Part shown: one piece after another, positions 13,072 to 52,760 of the stretch
How the letters are laid out: every line of letters begins with the position of its first letter
Numbering within the stretch: the first letter of the stretch is position 1
NCBI GenBank assembly: GCA_029561145.1
Contig: JAKQJM010000034.1
Location: 37,033 to 101,032, forward strand
DNA: 64,000 bases
Reading direction: 5' to 3'
From: Pseudomonadota bacterium
Lineage (GTDB): Bacteria; Pseudomonadota; Gammaproteobacteria; Xanthomonadales; Rhodanobacteraceae
The notes under the pieces: model-generated
What the model was told of the DNA's origin: nothing
Seen by the model: only the letters and a program-made list of their open reading frames with translations
Database searches by the model: none
Made by a program: the position numbers and the translations under genes

Positions 13072-14784
13072 ATGCCTGTATTGAACTGGATCGGCAAGGA
13101 TGCCGTAGCCCGACACGATGCCGAAGTTCCGTTTCGCCTGCTGCATGACGTGCCGGAGTTGGCCTGCGGCGATGCCGACAGCGGCAACCTGATCGTGGAA
13201 GGCGACAACCTGCTGGCGCTCAAGGCGCTGTTGCCGCACTACGGCGGCCAGGTGAAGTGCATCTACATCGACCCGCCGTACAACACCGGGCAGGATGAAC
13301 GCGACGACGAAGGCAAGCGCAACGGCTGGGTCTACAACGACAACGTGAACAGTCCGCAGATGCGCGAGTGGCTGGGCAAGGTGGTTGGTCCGGAGGCTGA
13401 AGACCTGACTCGCCACGACAAGTGGCTGTGCATGATGTACCCACGCCTGAAGCTGTTGAAGCGGTTTCTGCGGGACGACGGAGTGATCTTTGCCAGCATC
13501 GACGATATCGAACTGGCCAGCCTGCGTCTGCTGTTCGACGAGATTTTCGGCGTCGTCAATCGCGTGGGAACCATCGTCTGGAAGAACGCCACGGACAACA
13601 ACCCCACGCAGATCGCCAGTGAGCACGAGTACGTGCTGTGCTACGCGCGCGACAAGAGCAAGCTTCCGAAGGAGTGGAAATCCACCAGCCTCGCGGTCAA
13701 GACGAAGTTGCTCGACATGGGTGAGCAGTTCGTCCGCGACCACGCTGACCAGGAACAGCGGCAGGTCGCGTACACGAAGTGGTTTCGGAAGAACAAGGAC
13801 CAACTCTGGCCGTTCGACAGATACAAATTCATCGATGAAGATGGCGTTTATACCGGCAGCCAAAGCGTGCACAACCCAGGTAAGGAAGGCTATCGCTACG
13901 ACGTGATCCATCCAACGACGGGCCAGCCCTGTCAGCAGCCGATGATGGGTTACCGCTTCCCCGAGGAAACCATGCGCCGCCTGCTCGACGAGGGACGCAT
14001 CCTGTTCGGCGAGAACGAAACCAAGCTGATCGAACTGAAGGTGTACGCCAAGGACTATCGCGCCAAGCTTTCCAGCTTGTTCGAACTGGATGGGCGCATC
14101 GGTACCAACGAGATCAAGGCGATCTTCCCCGAGAGCAAGCGTCCGTTCGACTTTCCCAAACCGATTGAGCTGATCGAGGAGCTATTGAGCTTCACCACCA
14201 GCGACGACGACATCGTGATGGACTCGTTTGCTGGGTCGGGCACCACGGGCCAAGCGGTGCTTTCGCTGAACAAGGCAGATGGTCAGCGTCGGCGTTTCGT
14301 ACTGACGGAAATGAAATCGAGCATCGCGCGCGAGATCACCGCCGAGCGCGTGCGCCGCGTTTCCGAAGGCTACTCGCGAGGGCGTGCGCGCATCCCCGGC
14401 CTCGGCGGCGGTTTCCACTACGCCACCGTGGGCAAGTCGCTGTTCGCTGCCAACGGGCATATCAATCCCGAAGTGACCTTCGCCGAGATGGCGCGCTTCG
14501 TGTGGTTCATGGAGACGGGCACGCCGCTGGCATCGAAGCGACCTTCGTCGCCCTTGCTTGGGGTGCATGAAGGTCGTGCGGTGTACCTGCTGTACAACGG
14601 CATCCTCAAGGACAAGTCCACCGGTGGCGGCAATACCTTGACGTCGCCGTTGCTGGCCGAGTTGCCGCCGCACGAGGGGCCGAAGACGGTCTATGGCACG
14701 CGCTGCCTGATCCGCCCGGAGCGCCTGCGCGGTTTGCGGCTTGCGTTCAAGCAGTTGCCATACGAACTGAAGGTGGCGCGATGA
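13072..14784 (+). CDS. mod: Type III restriction-modification methyltransferase (Mod)
   Basis: This 570-residue adenine-N6 methyltransferase recognises the target site for the type III complex. Motif IV, 'YIDPPYNTG', is at about residue 66. The AdoMet motif I, 'DSFAGSGTTGQAVL', is at about residue 385. This order (DPPY before FXGXG) is the beta class typical of Mod proteins. The variable middle, about residues 170-330, should be the target-recognition region. The stop overlaps the res start (ATGA). No repeat tract that would suggest phase variation is seen. Confidence 0.95.
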   Translation: MPVLNWIGKDAVARHDAEVPFRLLHDVPELACGDADSGNLIVEGDNLLALKALLPHYGGQVKCIYIDPPYNTGQDERDDEGKRNGWVYNDNVNSPQMREWLGKVVGPEAEDLTRHDKWLCMMYPRLKLLKRFLRDDGVIFASIDDIELASLRLLFDEIFGVVNRVGTIVWKNATDNNPTQIASEHEYVLCYARDKSKLPKEWKSTSLAVKTKLLDMGEQFVRDHADQEQRQVAYTKWFRKNKDQLWPFDRYKFIDEDGVYTGSQSVHNPGKEGYRYDVIHPTTGQPCQQPMMGYRFPEETMRRLLDEGRILFGENETKLIELKVYAKDYRAKLSSLFELDGRIGTNEIKAIFPESKRPFDFPKPIELIEELLSFTTSDDDIVMDSFAGSGTTGQAVLSLNKADGQRRRFVLTEMKSSIAREITAERVRRVSEGYSRGRARIPGLGGGFHYATVGKSLFAANGHINPEVTFAEMARFVWFMETGTPLASKRPSSPLLGVHEGRAVYLLYNGILKDKSTGGGNTLTSPLLAELPPHEGPKTVYGTRCLIRPERLRGLRLAFKQLPYELKVAR

Positions 14785-17441
14785 GTCTCGACCACACCTG
14801 CCCCGAGAACGCGCGCCTGAAGGTTTATCAGTGCCAGGCGCTGGATGCGTTCGAGGCCTTTTTGCGTCGTTATCGCGACGACGGCGCGATACGAGCCTAC
14901 GAGGCCTGCGCGCGTGCGCATTTCGGATTGGGTGTGCCCTATCGCATGCCGCAGCCGTTCGCGGAAGGCGACATTCCTTGCGTCTGCCTGCGTATCCCCA
15001 CCGGCGGTGGCAAGACGCTGATGGCGGGCCACGCGATTCGCCGCGTCAACGATGCACTGCTGGGCGTGGAGTATTCGCTCACCGTGTGGCTGGTGCCGAC
15101 CGACGCCATCCGTGAACAGACGCTGCGTGCGTTGAAGACCACCGGCAACCTGCTGCACGATTCGTTGAGTGAAAAGCTTGGTTTGTTCAATGTGCTGACG
15201 CTGGACGAAGCGCTGAACCTGCAACCCGCCACACTCGACAGCGCCAACGTCATCGTCGTGGCGACCATGCAGTCATTCAAGCAGGAGGACACCGGGCGTT
15301 TGGCGGTGTACAAGCAGAATGGCCAGTTGATGGCGAATTTCAGCAGCATGCCTGGCGCCGAAGCGGGCGGTCACTCCCTGGTGGATCTGCTGCGTCAGCG
15401 CCGTCCGTTCGTAATCGTGGACGAGGCGCACAATCAGGGCACGCAACTCGCGTTCGATACCTTGGCGCGGCTTGACCCCTGTGCCGTGCTGGAACTGACC
15501 GCCACGCCGGATCGCAGCTACCAGCCGTCCAACGTGCTGTTCTCGGTATCGGCAGCGACCTTGCAGGCCGAGGACATGATCAAGTTGCCGGTGGAGCTGG
15601 CTGCACATGGCTCATGGCAGGTGACATTGCGCGAAGCGATCAATTGCCTGGAAGGCTTGCAGACCGAGGCCGACGCCGAGCAAGCCGCGACCGGTGAATA
15701 CCTGCGCCCGATCATGCTGCTGCAGGCCGAGCGGCGCAGCGAAGGACAGGAGACCTTCACTGCCGAGCGGGTGAAACAGGCACTGATCGACGATTTCAAT
15801 GTGCCGGGCAAGGCCATCGCTATTTCTACCGGCACGCTGGACGAGTTGGGCGATACCGACGTTTCCACACCGGATTGCCCGCTGCGCTTCATCATTACCG
15901 TGGACAAACTGCGCGAGGGTTGGGATTGCCCGTTTGCTTACGTGCTGGTGAGCTTTCGTGCCACCAGTACCAGCACGGCGCTGGAACAGATTCTTGGTCG
16001 CGTGCTGCGCATGCCGCGCGCCCAGCGCAAGCAACGTGAAGCCTTGAACAAGGCCTATGCGTTCGCGGTATCGCCACGCATCGTGGAAGTGGCCGAAGCC
16101 CTGCGCGATGGCCTCGTGCATGCCGGCTTCGAGCGCCAGGACGTGAACGATTTGATTCGCGCGGAGCACGGCGAACAAGGCACGAACGACCTGCTGCGGC
16201 AGCGCGACTGCGTGACCGTGCCGCTGCCGCAGGTGGACGACCAGGTGGAGTTGCCTGACCTCTCCGCATTGCCGGAGGCCACGCGCAAGCGCTTCGAGAA
16301 AACGCTGGAAGTGTCACCCGAGACCGGCAGCATGACCTTGCGAGGCGATTGGAGCCGCCCCGGTGACCAGAAGGCGCTGAAGGAAGCATTCCAGTCGCCA
16401 CAAGCCGTCCAGATAGTCGGGCAGGCCATTGCCCTGCTTGCCGCACCGGTGCCCTGGCAGCCCACGCCATCGGAGCGCGGCGAGAGCTTTGCGATACCAA
16501 TGCTGGCGTGGACACAGGGCGATTTGCTGCTGGAGGCGGGTGATGCGCCGCTGCTTGAGTCGGCATGGAACCCCAAGGATGCTTCCGTGGAGCTTCCTGA
16601 TGCGGCTTTTCCGAAGGACCTGGAAGCTGTACAGCGCGCCCGCTTGGCAATCACCGACGCAGGCAAGCTGAGTTACGACACCGGCGAAAAGCTGGATGTT
16701 CAAATGCACTTGTTCGTGCGCGAGCCGGCCAGCGACGAAAGCCTGTTGTGGTGGCTGGAACGACAGTTGCGCGATGACGGCATGATGCCGGAAGACTTGG
16801 CCGCATGGTTGTCGGGCGCACTGGGCTATCTCAAATCGCAGCGCGGCTTTACCACGGACGAGTTGGCATACCGCAAGTTCCGCTTGCGCGAGGCGCTGGC
16901 GGAACACCTGAAGAAGGCCCGGCGCAGTGCTGCCCAACAGGGATTCTTCGCCTTGTTGGGTGACGAGCCACAACTGAGCGCAGATGATCGTCTGCAGCGG
17001 GTTTTCAGCACGGGCCGCTACGCCTGGGACTCTCAATACAACGGTTTCGTCACCCTCAACCGGCACTTCTTTCCGCAGATCGGCAACCTCAAGTCCTCGG
17101 GCGAAGAGTTCAAGTGCGCCGAGTTCATTGCCAACGCGATGGACGGCGTTCGCGACTGGATTCGCAACGTGGAGCGCAAGCCGGGATCGTTCTCGCTGCC
17201 CACGTCGAGCGATCGTTTCTATCCCGACTTCGTGATACGGCTGGCCAACGGTGGAATCATCGCGGCGGAGTACAAGGGCGACCACCTTGCCAGCGGCAAG
17301 GACAGCGACGAAAAGAAACGGATCGGTGAGCTGTGGGAACGTCGTAGCGGTGGACGTTGCGCGTTCGCGTGGGTGGAGTTGCAGAACTGGGTGACACTGA
17401 AAGAGGCTGCCTTGCGCTGCAAAGGTTCACCCGCTCACTGA
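14781..17441 (+). CDS. res: Type III restriction endonuclease/translocase (Res)
   Basis: This 886-residue superfamily 2 helicase-nuclease forms the restricting complex with Mod. Walker A 'IPTGGGKTLMAGHAI' lies near residue 72, DEAH box 'VIVDEAHNQG' near 213, and motif VI-like 'EQILGRVLRMPRAQ' near 403. The C-terminal PD-(D/E)XK nuclease appears intact: 'FYPDFVIRLANGG', then 'AAEYKGDHLASG' near residue 830, giving D and E-X-K. No frameshift is visible, so the system looks functional. It starts inside the mod stop codon. Confidence 0.95.
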   Translation: MSLDHTCPENARLKVYQCQALDAFEAFLRRYRDDGAIRAYEACARAHFGLGVPYRMPQPFAEGDIPCVCLRIPTGGGKTLMAGHAIRRVNDALLGVEYSLTVWLVPTDAIREQTLRALKTTGNLLHDSLSEKLGLFNVLTLDEALNLQPATLDSANVIVVATMQSFKQEDTGRLAVYKQNGQLMANFSSMPGAEAGGHSLVDLLRQRRPFVIVDEAHNQGTQLAFDTLARLDPCAVLELTATPDRSYQPSNVLFSVSAATLQAEDMIKLPVELAAHGSWQVTLREAINCLEGLQTEADAEQAATGEYLRPIMLLQAERRSEGQETFTAERVKQALIDDFNVPGKAIAISTGTLDELGDTDVSTPDCPLRFIITVDKLREGWDCPFAYVLVSFRATSTSTALEQILGRVLRMPRAQRKQREALNKAYAFAVSPRIVEVAEALRDGLVHAGFERQDVNDLIRAEHGEQGTNDLLRQRDCVTVPLPQVDDQVELPDLSALPEATRKRFEKTLEVSPETGSMTLRGDWSRPGDQKALKEAFQSPQAVQIVGQAIALLAAPVPWQPTPSERGESFAIPMLAWTQGDLLLEAGDAPLLESAWNPKDASVELPDAAFPKDLEAVQRARLAITDAGKLSYDTGEKLDVQMHLFVREPASDESLLWWLERQLRDDGMMPEDLAAWLSGALGYLKSQRGFTTDELAYRKFRLREALAEHLKKARRSAAQQGFFALLGDEPQLSADDRLQRVFSTGRYAWDSQYNGFVTLNRHFFPQIGNLKSSGEEFKCAEFIANAMDGVRDWIRNVERKPGSFSLPTSSDRFYPDFVIRLANGGIIAAEYKGDHLASGKDSDEKKRIGELWERRSGGRCAFAWVELQNWVTLKEAALRCKGSPAH

Positions 17442-46899: not shown

Positions 46900-47012
46900 C
46901 TCCGGGTTGACGAGCCGCGCTCTCGTCGATGCGGCGCGCCTTCGGGCACGCCTTGCAGTCCTTGCTTGCCGTTGATCGGGACGCGTCACGCGTCTGCAGG
47001 TCGCGACGGTCC

Positions 47013-48743
47013 ATGAGAATCGAAATGAATCGAGTGCTACTACGGCTGCCTTTGGCGGCTCTTATGCTCATCCTGGCGAGTTGCGTGTCGGTCTCGCGCC
47101 GGGAAGGCGCCGAACACGTCCAGTCGCTGGTCGAGGCGCGTGTCGCAAATACCCGCTTGTGGAAAGGCGACAACGCATCAGCGGCCATTGACGCGCGGCT
47201 CGCGGAGCTCATCGCCACGCCACTGACGGTCGAGTCCGCCCGCCAGATCGCGGTGATGAGGAATCCGCAGATCGTCGCGGAATATGCTCGCCTCGGGATC
47301 GCCCAGGCTGACGTGGTCGACGCCAGTCGAATCGCAAACCCGAGTTTCGGTGGCTCGGCGCTCAGGGACGGTGGTCCGGCAAAAATCACGATGAGTCTGA
47401 GTCTGCCGCTTGCCGACCTGCTCCTGCTGCCTTCGAGGCGCCGGTTCGCCGAAGCCGGGTACGTCCGTGCCCAGCAGCTCATCGCCGCGCAGTTGATCAC
47501 GCTCGCCTCCGATATCAGCCAGGCCTGGTACGAAGCCGCCGGAGCGCAACAGGTAGCGGCCATGCGCGACGCGGTTTCGCGGGCTGCCGCGGCTTCGGCC
47601 GAACTCGCCAGGCGCTACCACGAAGCGGGAAACATCAGCGCGCTCGAATTCGAGCTGGAACAGGCTGCCGCGAGTCAGGCACGCCTTGCCTCGGCGGCAG
47701 CCAGGGCCGAATCGGTGCGCGCACGCCTTGCCCTCAACAGCCGGATGGGACTCTCGGGTGCGATGGCATCAAACTGGACGCTGGACGTTCCGCTGGCGGC
47801 GCCGGCAAGCGATGAGGAGGGTCTTGAAACCCTGCAGTCACTCGCGCGGGAGAATCGCCTGGATCTGCTCGCTGCGCACCGCCAGGTCGACCTGCTCGAA
47901 GATGTCGTCGATACGGTAAAGCGTTGGCGCCTGATCGGAAACATCGATGTCGGTGTCGAACGCGAACGGGAGTCCGATGGAGCACGACTGACCGGCCCAA
48001 CCCTGTCGCTCGCCGTGCCGTTGTTCAACCAGGGCCAGGCGGCAGTTGCCCGTGCGGAAGCGCAACTTGAAGTCGCCCGCGGCGATCTTGCCCTGCTCGA
48101 ACTGCAGATCGACAACGAGGTCCGGCTCGGCAAGGAACGCGTCTCTGCGATGCGCGACATCGCCGAGGATTATCGCGTGGCACTCGTCCCGCAACGCGAG
48201 GCCATCGTCAGATACCAGGCCGAGCGCAACAACTACATGCTGATCGGCGCCTTTGAACTCCTGCGCTCCAGACAGCAGGAGTTCGACGCCTACGAGGGCT
48301 ATCTGGATGCCGTGCGCGACTACTGGGTGGCCCGGAACGAACTGAGCAAGGCGATAGGCACGAGTTTGCCAAGCGATGCATCGGTCAAGGCCAGGGTGAT
48401 CGGTGTCGATGCAATCCTCGCGCCGCCCGTCGATCCCGGCATGCAGCACGGACAGCACGGCGAGACCATGCCAGAGGCCGCGCACGACGACCACTCCGGC
48501 CACGACATGTCGAAAATGACGCCGACGACGCCCGCGGCAGTACCCGCACCGCATCGAACCGGGCCCTCGTCGAACCCGGATCTCCCACCGCGCGACACCG
48601 GCAACGTGGATTCCGCTGAACCCGTCACGGATCCGCCGCAGGACATCAAGGCCATCGACCACCACGGTCATGAAGGACACGAACCGATGCCGACACCCAG
48701 CCCTGCGCAAACAGGAAACGAAAAGCCCGGAGAACTTCCATGA
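47013..48743 (+). CDS. TolC-family outer-membrane efflux lipoprotein with His-rich tail
   Basis: The ATG at 47013 gives 576 residues (an ATG at 47025 is an alternative). The signal ends in a lipobox (LILASC). Two TolC-type repeats follow, with long helices ('EFELEQAAASQARLASAAAR', 'AVARAEAQLEVARGDLALLE') and strand segments such as 'TLSLAVPLFNQGQ'. The last 100 residues are rich in His, Met and Asp (HGQHGE, HDDHSGHDMS, HHGHEGHE), suggesting metal binding. It lies between copL and the multicopper oxidase. No inner-membrane pump or adaptor gene is adjacent. Confidence 0.83.
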   Translation: MRIEMNRVLLRLPLAALMLILASCVSVSRREGAEHVQSLVEARVANTRLWKGDNASAAIDARLAELIATPLTVESARQIAVMRNPQIVAEYARLGIAQADVVDASRIANPSFGGSALRDGGPAKITMSLSLPLADLLLLPSRRRFAEAGYVRAQQLIAAQLITLASDISQAWYEAAGAQQVAAMRDAVSRAAAASAELARRYHEAGNISALEFELEQAAASQARLASAAARAESVRARLALNSRMGLSGAMASNWTLDVPLAAPASDEEGLETLQSLARENRLDLLAAHRQVDLLEDVVDTVKRWRLIGNIDVGVERERESDGARLTGPTLSLAVPLFNQGQAAVARAEAQLEVARGDLALLELQIDNEVRLGKERVSAMRDIAEDYRVALVPQREAIVRYQAERNNYMLIGAFELLRSRQQEFDAYEGYLDAVRDYWVARNELSKAIGTSLPSDASVKARVIGVDAILAPPVDPGMQHGQHGETMPEAAHDDHSGHDMSKMTPTTPAAVPAPHRTGPSSNPDLPPRDTGNVDSAEPVTDPPQDIKAIDHHGHEGHEPMPTPSPAQTGNEKPGELP

Positions 48744-48822
48744 ACCTGCTTCACCTGCCGCGCGCGCGCGCTGCCTGGTTTTCCCTCATCACGGAGTCAA
48801 AGCATGCACGAGGTGCAGCATG
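48740..48822 (+). CDS. Possible 27-residue coupling ORF between efflux and oxidase genes
   Basis: This frame begins in the stop of the TolC-like gene (ATGA at 48740) and ends in the start of the oxidase gene (ATGA at 48820). It reads MNLLHLPRARAAWFSLITES followed by KHARGAA. Both junctions are 4-nt overlaps, so ribosomes could pass through it to the oxidase start. It is not in the ORF track. It could equally be chance. Confidence 0.35.
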
Positions 48823-50220
48823 ACCAGCCGACGCGATCTCCTGCAGCTGATGAGTATTGGCGGTGCCGGATTGCTGGCTGGCACGAGCCGGCCGGTCTCG
48901 GCCCAGCACGCGGATCATGCGCTCGATGCGGTCACGAATGCGGAGGCGAAGCCGGCATCGGCAGGCCGCACGGGTCAGGGCTATCGACCGGTGCGCACCT
49001 TGAACGGCTGGACCCTGCCGTTCCGCATGAACAACGGCGTCAAGGAATTCCACCTGGTCGCCGAGGAAATCGACCATGAGTTCGCGCCGGGATCACGCGC
49101 CAAATGCTGGGGCTACAACGGCACGACACCGGGGCCGACCCTTGAGGCCGTCGAAGGCGACCGCGTGCGCATCTTCGTGACGAACCGACTGGCCGAAGGC
49201 ACCTCGGTCCATTGGCACGGCATCGACTTGCCGAATGGCCTTGATGGCGTCAGCGGATTGAACCAGACGCCGATCGCGCCAGGCGAAACCTATGCCTACG
49301 AGTTCACCCTCAAGCAGCACGGCACGCACATGTATCACCCGCATGCCGATGAAATGACCCAGATGGCCTTCGGCATGATGGGCATGTTCATCATCCATCC
49401 GCAGGCTGGCGAAGAACTGGCCATCGATCGCGACTATTGCTTCATGCTGCACAACTGGGCGCTGCATCCGGGCACCTATCGTCCCGATCCCAGCATCATG
49501 CTCGATTTCGATTTGTGGACCTTCAACTCGAAATCATTTCCGGCCATCGAACACCTCGTGATGCGCACCGGTGAGCGCATGCGTATGCGCATCGGCAACC
49601 TGTCGATGTGGAATCACCCGATCCACCTGCACAGCAATCCTTTCTGGGTGACCGGTTCCGACGGCGGGCGCTGGCCGCGATCGCAATGGCGACGCGAAGT
49701 GACGGAAATCGTCGGCGTGGGACAGATGCGCGATATCGAGTTCGTCGCGACCGAGCCTGGCGATTGGGCCTTGCACTGCCACATGGCGCACCACACGATG
49801 GGCCCGATGGGGCATGGCATTCCGAATCCGGTCGGCGTGGACCCTTCCGGTGTCGAGAACGAGATCCGCAAGCTGCTGCCAGGCTACATGGCGATGGGGA
49901 AGAACGGCATGACCGAACATGCCGCGCATGTCGCGATGGGCATGAAGGGACCAGCCAACACCCTGCCGATGATGGATGGCCAGGGTCAGTTCGGAAACAT
50001 CCACATGGGTGGCATGTTCACCGTCGTGAAGGTGCGCGACGACCTCGCTGCCGATGACTATCGCGATACGGGCTGGTATCGGCATCCACCTGACAAGATG
50101 GCGCGGCGGGTAAGCACGGATCCGGATTTCGGCACGCCGCATCGCCGATCGACTGGCGTCAAGGTCGAGCTGCCGCGCGCTGGAGTCGAGCCGCTGGCTA
50201 GGCCCGCCGATCGCTCGTGA
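48820..50220 (+). CDS. Multicopper oxidase (copper-resistance type)
   Basis: The ATG at 48820 gives 466 residues. A twin-arginine signal (TSRRDLLQLMSIGGAGLLAG) sends the folded protein to the periplasm. All four copper motifs are present: 'SVHWHGIDLPNG', 'GTHMYHPHADE', 'HPIHLHSNPFWV' and 'ALHCHMAHHTMGPMGHG', covering type 1 and the trinuclear centre. The C-terminal part is Met-rich (HMGGMFTVV, MAMGKNGM). It probably oxidises Cu(I) in the periplasm, like CopA/CueO, but is shorter than typical CopA. Its last 23 nt overlap the convergent aquaporin gene. Confidence 0.92.
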   Translation: MTSRRDLLQLMSIGGAGLLAGTSRPVSAQHADHALDAVTNAEAKPASAGRTGQGYRPVRTLNGWTLPFRMNNGVKEFHLVAEEIDHEFAPGSRAKCWGYNGTTPGPTLEAVEGDRVRIFVTNRLAEGTSVHWHGIDLPNGLDGVSGLNQTPIAPGETYAYEFTLKQHGTHMYHPHADEMTQMAFGMMGMFIIHPQAGEELAIDRDYCFMLHNWALHPGTYRPDPSIMLDFDLWTFNSKSFPAIEHLVMRTGERMRMRIGNLSMWNHPIHLHSNPFWVTGSDGGRWPRSQWRREVTEIVGVGQMRDIEFVATEPGDWALHCHMAHHTMGPMGHGIPNPVGVDPSGVENEIRKLLPGYMAMGKNGMTEHAAHVAMGMKGPANTLPMMDGQGQFGNIHMGGMFTVVKVRDDLAADDYRDTGWYRHPPDKMARRVSTDPDFGTPHRRSTGVKVELPRAGVEPLARPADRS

Positions 50221-50905
50221 GTTGCCGGTCAATTCGTTCGCTATCCGTCAACGCGGGCACCAGCAGGCCCGTCACGAAGCAAGCGAAGCCAGCGCCCAGC
50301 AGTTGTGCGACAACGAACCCGCCGACGTCCTGCGGCCGAATACCGGCGAACGTCTGCGTCAGTGCGCGCGCCAGTGTTACCGCCGGATTCGCGAACGATG
50401 TGCTCGCGGTGAACCAGTACGCAGCGAAGACATACGCGGCGACGAGCAGCGGAACGGCCTTGGGCCTCAACCGCGCGCCGAGACGGATCGTCAGCAACAG
50501 GCCAAAGCTCGCGACTCCCTCGCTGATCCATTGCGATACGCCCGCGCGCTCATGTGTGCCCGGCTGAAACAGCGGAAGGTCGAACATCGCGTGAGCGAGC
50601 ATTACGCCGGCGATTGCACCCGAGACCTGCGCGCCGATATAGGCGAGTGTGTCCCGGCTTTCCAGATCGCCGTGAACACGCGCCGCGAGCGTGACTGCCG
50701 GATTGAAATGAGCGCCGGAGACCGGGCCCAGCACGGCAATGAGGACATACAGGATCGCCGCCGTGGCGCCTGCGTTGGCCAGCAGGGCGACGCCATCGTT
50801 TCCTTGCGACAGGCTGACGCCCATGATCCCTGAACCGACCACGCAGGCCAGCAGCAGGGCCGTGCCGATGAATTCGGCGAAGATCCTGTTCGTCAGCGGC
50901 ATCAA
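50198..50905 (-). CDS. MIP-family aquaglyceroporin in an arsenic operon
   Basis: The 235-residue channel has six helices and both NPA boxes (HFNPAVTLAAR near residue 65, SFANPAVTLARA near 173). It is the last gene of the arsR-arsI-arsC-arsC operon and overlaps arsC by 4 nt. In Sinorhizobium meliloti, an aquaglyceroporin (AqpS) in an ars operon lets arsenite formed by ArsC leave the cell by diffusion. No ArsB or Acr3 pump is present here, so the same role is likely. Substrate is inferred from context. Confidence 0.85.
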   Translation of the reverse strand: MMPLTNRIFAEFIGTALLLACVVGSGIMGVSLSQGNDGVALLANAGATAAILYVLIAVLGPVSGAHFNPAVTLAARVHGDLESRDTLAYIGAQVSGAIAGVMLAHAMFDLPLFQPGTHERAGVSQWISEGVASFGLLLTIRLGARLRPKAVPLLVAAYVFAAYWFTASTSFANPAVTLARALTQTFAGIRPQDVGGFVVAQLLGAGFACFVTGLLVPALTDSERIDRQLTSDRRA

Positions 50906-51294
50906 AGCGTCGCCAGCAGATTTCTTACCCGGAGCGAGATCTCATCGCGGACTGCACGATAACCCTCGTCATCCATGTGTCTGGGATCAGGCAATCCCCA
51001 ATCTTCACGGTGCTTCGCCGACACCCATGGGCACGCATCGCCGCAGCCCATCGTGACCACGGCATCGAATTCGCCGACGACGTCATCGAGTGACTTGGAG
51101 CCGTGCTTGCCGAGGTCGTAACCGAGCTCAGCCATGAAGCGGACAGCCTTGGGATTGATCACGCCGGACGGTTTCGATCCGGCGCTCAACGCTTCGATCC
51201 CGGCGCCGCCATGGATGCGCGCGAACGCCTCGGCCATCTGGCTGCGATTGGCGTTTTCCACGCACACGAAAAGAACACGTTTCCTGGAAGTCAT
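50902..51294 (-). CDS. arsC: Arsenate reductase, LMW-phosphatase type (second copy)
   Basis: The 130-residue protein has the phosphatase-like loop 'FVCVENANRSQMAEAF' (CX5R at residues 11-17) and a second cysteine pair 'MGCGDACPW' near residue 82, which should pass electrons to thioredoxin. 'LPDPRHMDDEG' is the acid loop. The enzyme reduces arsenate to arsenite. It differs clearly from the neighbouring ArsC in sequence and spacing of cysteines. The gene overlaps the aquaporin start and lies 7 nt after the first arsC. Confidence 0.88.
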   Translation of the reverse strand: MTSRKRVLFVCVENANRSQMAEAFARIHGGAGIEALSAGSKPSGVINPKAVRFMAELGYDLGKHGSKSLDDVVGEFDAVVTMGCGDACPWVSAKHREDWGLPDPRHMDDEGYRAVRDEISLRVRNLLATL

Positions 51295-51301
51295 GGGTCA
51301 C

Positions 51302-51787
51302 TCAACGCTCGTTGGCAATCAGGCGCAGTTGCTGCTCTCGGGCGAGATGATCGAGCCGGTCCAGGCGCAACGCGCACAGCAGTTCGATTCGACGGCGAAG
51401 GACCAGCCAGACATCCTTGAATGCCTGCCTGTCGTCGGGTGTAAGCGCGGGATCGGGTACGCCCCAATGCGCCATCGCGGGGTGGCCCGGCCAGACAGGA
51501 CAAACCTCGCCAGCAGCGTCGTCGCAGACCGTGATGATGAAATCCATGACTGGCGCATTCGGGGCAGCGAACTCATCCCAGCTCTTGGTTCTGAGCGAAC
51601 TCGGATTGATGCCCAGACTGGCGATAAGCTCGGCCGCGAGCGGCTGCACTGCGGGCGAGGGATGACTGCCAGCGCTGTAGCCACGGATGCGTCCCTTGCT
51701 TAGCGCTGTGATCAACGCCTCGGCCATCTGGCTGCGGGCAGAATTTCCGGTGCACAGGAAAAATGCGTTGTAGGTGCGTTCGCTCAT
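51302..51787 (-). CDS. arsC: Arsenate reductase ArsC (first copy)
   Basis: The ATG at 51787 gives 161 residues; the longer frame from 51823 would overlap the previous gene. The active-site loop is 'FLCTGNSARSQMAEALI'. 'GYSAGSHPSPAVQPLAAELI', 'FIITVCDDAAGEVCPVWPG' and 'HWGVPDP' match thioredoxin- or glutaredoxin-coupled ArsC proteins of the LMW-phosphatase fold. The product reduces As(V) to As(III) in the cytoplasm. It is the third gene of the tight arsR-led operon. Confidence 0.9.
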   Translation of the reverse strand: MSERTYNAFFLCTGNSARSQMAEALITALSKGRIRGYSAGSHPSPAVQPLAAELIASLGINPSSLRTKSWDEFAAPNAPVMDFIITVCDDAAGEVCPVWPGHPAMAHWGVPDPALTPDDRQAFKDVWLVLRRRIELLCALRLDRLDHLAREQQLRLIANER

Positions 51788-51795
51788 GATATGGC

Positions 51796-52281
51796 TCAGC
51801 GACAATCCGACTTCGGGCAGCACGACGGGCTTTGCTCGGGCACGGACATCACTTGCGACGCGCCGGGTGTGCAGGCACTGCCGTCAGTGGCGCAGGGCGC
51901 ATCCCCGCCGTGATAGGTGGTCGCACTATCCAGCGTGTGAAAGGTTTCCCAGCGTGTGCCTTGCGGGTCTTCGGTCCATAGCTTGTCGGAACGGGCGTAG
52001 CAGCAAACCGTGGCGTCCTCGGGGATGACGCTGCCACCCGCGGCGTCCAATCGACGCCCGAGATCGGCGAGTTCTTCACGGCTGTCGACCTGGATTCCCA
52101 GGTGGTCGATTCCCGGCGCGCGGCCCACGGTGGAGATCGCGAAGTTGACTCGCGGATCTTCCATCATCCACTTGGCGTAGTCGGGCTTGAGGACAGTCGG
52201 TGGGGATGCGAACAGTTCGGAATAGAAGCGGATGCTGGCGGTGAGATCGGCCACATTGAGGTGTACGTGGAAGCGGTTCAT
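51796..52281 (-). CDS. arsI: ArsI/CadI-family VOC metalloprotein
   Basis: The ATG at 52281 overlaps the arsR stop (ATGA) and gives 161 residues. The vicinal oxygen chelate fold has candidate metal ligands His5 (FHVHLNVADL), His60 (GIDHLGIQV) and the glutamate in 'RWETFHTL'. A vicinal pair Cys93-Cys94 in 'ATVCCYARSDKLWTEDPQG' matches the substrate-binding pair of ArsI C-As lyases. The C-terminal tail adds CCPKSDC. Characterised ArsI splits methylarsenite to arsenite. CadI relatives have less clear roles. Confidence 0.85.
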   Translation of the reverse strand: MNRFHVHLNVADLTASIRFYSELFASPPTVLKPDYAKWMMEDPRVNFAISTVGRAPGIDHLGIQVDSREELADLGRRLDAAGGSVIPEDATVCCYARSDKLWTEDPQGTRWETFHTLDSATTYHGGDAPCATDGSACTPGASQVMSVPEQSPSCCPKSDCR

Positions 52282-52619
52282 GGCGTGGTTCCTGATTTGC
52301 GAGGTGCGCAAAGAGCGACGGGATCACAACTTGCAACTCCAGCGCAGCAGTTTTCGGTGAGATACGCGATCAGGGTGTTCATCTGCAGGTAATTTGCACG
52401 AACACGAATGACCCGGCCTTCGCGCTGGTCGTGGACCAGCGACGCCGCACGCAGGACGTTGAGATGCGCAGTCAACGTAGCGGCCGGCAGGTCGAGGAGC
52501 TCGCGAAGTTCACCCACAGGCAGCCCGCCGGGGCCGACCTGGACAAGCTGGCGGAAGGCCGCCAGCCTCGTTTCGTGACTGAGGGCATTGAGGACCAAAA
52601 CTGCTGACTGACCGTTCAT
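52278..52619 (-). CDS. arsR: ArsR-family arsenical-responsive repressor
   Basis: The ATG at 52619 gives 113 residues with the winged helix-turn-helix (ALSHETRLAAFRQLV, then LDLPAATLTAHLNVLRAA). The usual CXC sensor in the DNA-binding helix is absent. Instead Cys91, Cys92 and Cys98 lie in 'ENCCAGVASC' near the C terminus. That spacing equals the As(III) site Cys95/96/102 of Acidithiobacillus ferrooxidans ArsR. It heads the operon and presumably represses it until arsenite binds. Confidence 0.92.
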   Translation of the reverse strand: MNGQSAVLVLNALSHETRLAAFRQLVQVGPGGLPVGELRELLDLPAATLTAHLNVLRAASLVHDQREGRVIRVRANYLQMNTLIAYLTENCCAGVASCDPVALCAPRKSGTTP

Positions 52620-52760
52620 TGTTCGATTGTTCCGGTATTTACGAAATATGTCAATGACCCAGCCCCGGCGTCGATGACCGACAACCTCCTTCGAGCTTAT
52701 GAATGAGGCTCTTCGTTCGCGAGAGCGGATCAACCCACAATCACTGGGCCATCGATGGAC

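Follow-up and report, generated by a model that had tools for sequence, protein, structure and literature searches.

How can a bacterium dispose of arsenite when its arsenic operon encodes a channel and no pump? The question is raised by five genes in the window, the 64,000-nucleotide stretch of DNA analysed here, which comes from contig JAKQJM010000034.1 of a Rhodanobacteraceae genome (order Xanthomonadales; assembly GCA_029561145.1). An earlier note, made from the sequence alone, described an arsenic operon with an aquaglyceroporin as its only transporter. The reading that we favour, with a probability of roughly 0.8, is that the five genes form an AqpS-type operon for arsenic resistance, repressed by ArsR, in which passive efflux of arsenite replaces the pump.

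Results

Organization of the operon

The gene order arsR-arsI-arsC-arsC-aquaporin had been proposed, with tight packing and no gene for ArsB or Acr3. All five open reading frames were present on the minus strand between positions 50198 and 52619 (Table 1). In the window sequence, arsR and arsI overlap by 4 nucleotides (ATGA), arsI and arsC-a are separated by 8 nucleotides, arsC-a and arsC-b by 7 nucleotides, and arsC-b and aqp overlap by 1 nucleotide (TGATG). Profile searches based on Pfam and on NCBIfam both supported the naming of the five genes, and detected neither ArsB nor Acr3 in the operon. The proposed layout was thus recovered in full. The five tightly joined arsenic genes are no chance arrangement, and a MIP channel is encoded with arsR and arsC in one operon, as is characteristic of AqpS-type loci.

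Table 1. Features of the arsenic operon and of its upstream region (positions in the window).
Feature	Positions	Strand	Length	Assignment
arsR	52278..52619	-	113 aa	ArsR/SmtB repressor, AfArsR type; HTH_20; NF033788 above cut-off
arsI	51796..52281	-	161 aa	C-As lyase; ArsI_CadI_VOC above curated cut-off; NF041414 130.5 bits, cut-off 116
arsC-a	51302..51787	-	161 aa	LMW-type arsenate reductase, pI258-like; PF01451 (LMWPc)
arsC-b	50902..51294	-	130 aa	LMW-type arsenate reductase, second subtype; PF01451 (LMWPc)
aqp	50198..50902	-	234 aa	AqpS-subfamily MIP channel; PF00230
Predicted promoter/ArsR operator	52617..52654	-		TTGACA (-35), then imperfect palindrome TTCGTAAATACCGGAACAATCGAA, ending at the arsR ATG

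The region adjoining aqp is a copper/metal resistance neighbourhood. An open reading frame for a multicopper oxidase (48670-50220, plus strand) converges with aqp, the two overlapping by 23 nucleotides (50198-50220), and is preceded by an open reading frame for an outer-membrane efflux protein (46929-48743, plus strand). Elsewhere in the window (13072-17441), two large neighbouring open reading frames, whose translations were read by eye, resemble a type III restriction-modification pair, one being like a site-specific DNA methyltransferase and the other like a helicase-nuclease.

The channel

The product of aqp contains two NPA motifs (N67 and N172), which varied hardly or not at all across 92 sequences. 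When the protein was aligned with 91 relatives and the AqpZ-like MIP of the same genome, T47, Y162, S169, and V175 fell at the four positions of the selectivity filter. The position of the ar/R arginine was occupied by V in 83 of the 92 sequences, by I in 8, by A in 1, and by R in none. Aquaglyceroporins of the GlpF type have a W/G/F/R filter, which differs from the T/Y/S/V filter of the aligned window protein. Identity was 52-56% to the Sinorhizobium homologues that represented AqpS in the comparison. The AlphaFold model displayed a MIP fold with a mean pLDDT of 93.9, and its top match in the PDB was 7cjs (Aquaporin NIP2-1). The absence of the arginine from the filter and the relatedness to the Sinorhizobium proteins indicate that, on sequence grounds, the channel is a MIP of the AqpS subfamily and not a GlpF-type aquaglyceroporin. 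The initial label of aquaglyceroporin was therefore right as to the MIP family and has to be replaced as to the type. AqpS from S. meliloti reportedly conducts methylated arsenicals.

The second MIP of the genome (L002; G000 contig 119, 8652-9320) was considered as an arsenic channel and discarded, as it is AqpZ-like and has an arginine in its filter. It is the sole MIP besides the AqpS channel, and no GlpF-type channel was seen in the genome. Thus, arsenite may cross the membrane mainly through the AqpS channel, whether inward or outward.

Arsenite exporters in the genome and in the order

The genome (3.6 Mb, 99.4% complete, 149 contigs separated by small gaps) was searched with profiles for ArsB, Acr3, and ArsP, three of a wider set of exporter families that also includes ArsJ and ArsK. 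ArsB (PF02040) gave no match in the whole genome, the ArsB control giving none in its E. coli genome either; Acr3 (TIGR00832) and ArsP likewise gave no match genome-wide. The sensitivity of the searches was adequate, since the same models exceeded 400 bits elsewhere in the order. A broad SBF search returned one Acr3 candidate (G000 contig 13), which proved to be an SBF_like protein (PF13593, 339 bits) and is the only BASS-family match of the genome. For the ArsB, Acr3, and ArsP families, the description of the channel as the only transporter therefore holds for the entire genome. One more ArsC, of the glutaredoxin type, is encoded away from any arsenic operon. ArsM was considered as an internal source of methylarsenite and set aside, since nothing exceeded the NF008823 cut-off; sub-threshold methyltransferase matches also appeared in all 14 control genomes.

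The relationship between channel and pump was then analysed in a sample of 300 genomes of the order, calling the channel at E<1e-50. The channel was present in 38 of them. Acr3 was absent from 34 of these 38 genomes versus 115 of the 262 others, and exceeded its cut-off in 4/38 versus 147/262 (Fisher p=5e-8, computed on related genomes and uncorrected for ancestry). A strong ArsB match was found in 0/38 channel genomes. The rarity of Acr3 in channel genomes indicates a tendency towards mutual exclusion of channel and pump, as would fit a channel that has replaced the arsenite pump. A scan of GTDB revealed at least 563 relatives of the channel, mainly in Proteobacteria among the matches listed.

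ArsI and the two arsenate reductases

In ArsI, the iron ligands (H5, H60, and E112) and the vicinal substrate cysteines (C93-C94) are all kept. The closest structures were 5d4f and 5c4p (E=5e-22), which align over the domain and match at the His and Glu residues and at the vicinal Cys pair. Together with the NF041414 score, these motifs bear out the earlier claim that ArsI is genuine, and window ArsI most likely demethylates methylarsenite, as judged from these conserved residues.

Both ArsC proteins have the CX5R loop and further redox cysteines of the LMW type. ArsC-a contains a C12-X5-R loop, C88, and C96, and aligns with the arsenate reductase 1jl3 including its cysteine pair. ArsC-b contains a C11-X5-R loop, with C84 and C88 in the sequence GCGDACP, and its best structure was an arsenate reductase (3t38, E=6e-25) carrying the motif TMGCGD.CP. 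The two proteins belong to different subtypes and share 33% identity. Each scored under the equivalog cut-off of its NCBIfam model (TIGR02691 being the best model for ArsC-a), so both enzymes are named from their motifs and their context, and the assignment of substrate and electron donor is predicted. The low identity and the scores raise the alternative that one of the two has a phosphatase or another thiol-redox role, the pair not consisting of two arsenate reductases. We consider this unlikely, given that the CX5R loop and the second cysteine pair of each protein align with arsenate reductase structures and that each type adjoins aqpS in other genomes. The tandem had also been regarded as unusual, a view contradicted by at least 15 other aqpS loci with two arsC genes and by a published operon (PMC10138600).

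ArsR and its predicted operator

ArsR contains three cysteines (C91, C92, and C98) within the sequence ENCCAGVASC near its C-terminus, forming the Cys-Cys-X5-Cys arrangement of the AfArsR type. The closest solved structure was an ArsR (6j05, E=4e-16), the alignment spanning LTENCC and the third cysteine. AfArsR, a sensor of As(III) and MAs(III), has this same cysteine site.

The TTGACA hexamer and the palindrome lie within the 35 bp preceding the arsR ATG, and an alignment of the upstream regions of 25 related aqp operons showed them to be conserved. When the window was excluded from the construction of a weight matrix, this site still ranked first among approximately 128,000 positions, with 28 bits (24 on the opposite strand), the next unrelated site reaching 4.4. 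The operator occurs as a single copy in the genome, allowing up to 3 mismatches. A conserved, single-copy palindrome makes the five-gene operon look autoregulated by ArsR, as the sole target detected with that mismatch limit. The earlier note had named, as one observation that would refute its proposal, a pump gene located elsewhere and controlled by this regulator; none was found, the genome having no ArsB, Acr3, or ArsP gene and the operator occurring only once. In the window as in the relatives, the -35/-10 spacing (52617-52654) suggests that transcription starts close to the ATG of arsR, so the arsR mRNA may be leaderless.

Related loci and origin of the operon

The core neighbourhood of aqpS loci is arsR-arsC-aqp, and the order arsR-(arsI)-arsC-aqp is kept in dozens of loci. 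As read from a quick tree, arsI adjoins aqpS in 25 of 108 loci, which are clustered on that tree, with 13 changes of arsI presence or absence, at least 5 of them forced by well-supported branches. Loci that link the two genes recur throughout the order and are also found in Alpha- and Betaproteobacteria, and a Hydrogenophilales MAG (L088) has the order of the window, arsR-arsI-arsC-arsC-aqp. This recurrence, and the publication of pump-less MIP operons (PMC4435449, PMC6205960), speak against the notion of an exceptional arrangement.

The association of arsI with aqp, clustered on the tree, would also be in line with a channel that mainly serves the methylarsenite branch, by import for ArsI or by release, resistance being provided by an unrecognised arsenite efflux route. 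The T/Y/S/V filter, devoid of the ordinary aquaporin arginine, would suit such a role, and methylarsonous acid is conducted by aquaglyceroporins (PMC1440775). However, arsI is absent from 77% of the aqp loci compared, most of which keep arsC beside aqp, and the tendency of the channel to exclude Acr3 genome-wide fits pump replacement. We therefore regard a channel devoted to methylarsenite as improbable, and retain passive arsenite efflux as the preferred function.

Among the congeners sampled, Acr3 was found in 4/5 and a channel of the window type in 0/5; one of them (G266, locus L118) has the operon arsR-arsI-arsC-acr3-arsC. The window proteins are mostly closer to those of other aqp operons (69% identity for ArsR and 61% for ArsC-a with L042) than to those of the congener (48% and 53%, respectively). 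Derivation of the window operon from the acr3 operon of the congener by a swap of the pump is not favoured by these values. With ArsR, ArsC, and the channel all closer to aqp operons than to L118, the window operon was probably gained as one unit. The distribution among congeners might alternatively reflect a degenerate or silent cluster, which was acquired, lost its pump, and ceased to provide useful resistance. This is very improbable: the five open reading frames are intact with preserved motifs, the operator is conserved, intact operons of similar layout occur in many genomes, and the relatedness to other aqp operons does not correspond to a simple pump deletion.

Two features of related loci were recorded in addition. 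The acr3 operon of the congener ends in a single open reading frame joining a glutaredoxin-type ArsC and ArsN2 (L118 3583-4449), a possible fusion protein. In three loci of the order, arsN2 lies between arsI and arsC (L037 5172-5621; L124 4866-5306; L036 between 5066 and 5606).

Discussion

We infer the substrates, the direction of flux, and the phenotype of the operon from the families to which its proteins belong. In the proposed mechanism, As(III) or MAs(III) would bind the cysteines of ArsR, lifting repression at the palindrome that overlaps the promoter. The two ArsCs would reduce cytosolic arsenate to arsenite, and ArsI would convert methylarsenite to arsenite by cleavage. Arsenite would exit down its gradient through the bidirectional, Arg-less AqpS channel, in place of a pump. 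Since a channel cannot protect against arsenite present outside the cell, the operon would be expected to confer resistance to arsenate and methylarsenite, with little or none to external arsenite, a pattern that agrees with the reports on S. meliloti (PMC6205960, PMC9454679).

A further possibility, which we find doubtful and put forward tentatively, is that a methylarsenical-permeable two-way channel and ArsI form one unit in a recurrent operon type, methylarsenite entering the cell, being demethylated, and arsenite draining through the same channel. If this were true, the cell would detoxify its surroundings without a pump. The presence within one order of a similar arsR-arsI-arsC cassette with a passive channel or an active pump provides a natural comparison, making it testable when passive efflux suffices and whether the demethylase depends on the type of exporter. 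AqpS-type operons extend well beyond rhizobia, and arsI is commonly part of them.

Comparison with known systems

In S. meliloti, AqpS takes the place of ArsB and protects the cell from arsenite that forms inside it (Yang et al. 2005, as described in PMC6205960 and PMC9454679). The analogy drawn by the earlier note is sound: both operons associate an AqpS-type channel, instead of ArsB or Acr3, with an arsenate reductase and ArsR, and their logic is closely similar. The rhizobial homologues compared share the Arg-less filter of the window. The two types differ in gene content, since the rhizobial loci compared have the order arsR-arsC(LMW)-aqpS-arsC(grx), usually without arsI and with arsC(grx) after aqpS, whereas the window contains arsI and two LMW-type arsC genes, both upstream of the channel gene.

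A 2015 survey reported 18 MIPs among 685 ars operons, every one as the sole transporter (PMC4435449), and an LMWPc_ArsC-AqpS module has been described in SAR11 (PMC6426599). In these operons, as in the window, the MIP is the only membrane transporter; the window adds ArsI and a second ArsC, glyoxalase being unmentioned in the text of PMC4435449. The closest counterparts in the same order, in Lysobacter sp. cf310 (L036), Dokdonella (L037), and genome G269 (L124), have the order arsR-arsI-arsN2-arsC-aqp. They share with the window the regulator, arsI, arsC-b, and the channel (approximately 64-79% identity) as well as the operator, but carry the acetyltransferase gene arsN2 (NF040501) where the window has arsC-a; this slot is a variable cassette position.

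ArsI and two ArsCs are also found together in a pump-type operon, cluster 1 of P. pseudoalcaligenes (PMC10138600). This cluster and L118 (arsR-arsI-arsC-arsB/acr3-arsC) resemble the window in encoding ArsR, ArsI, and two different ArsCs, and differ from it in that an active pump, ArsB or Acr3, stands where the window has the channel. In the part of the literature searched, we found no description of arsI and aqpS in one operon. Pump-less operons of this kind were first described in 2005. The operon in the window is a well-conserved example of them, notable mainly for arsI, which is a recurrent twist in the gene content of AqpS operons and not a unique one.
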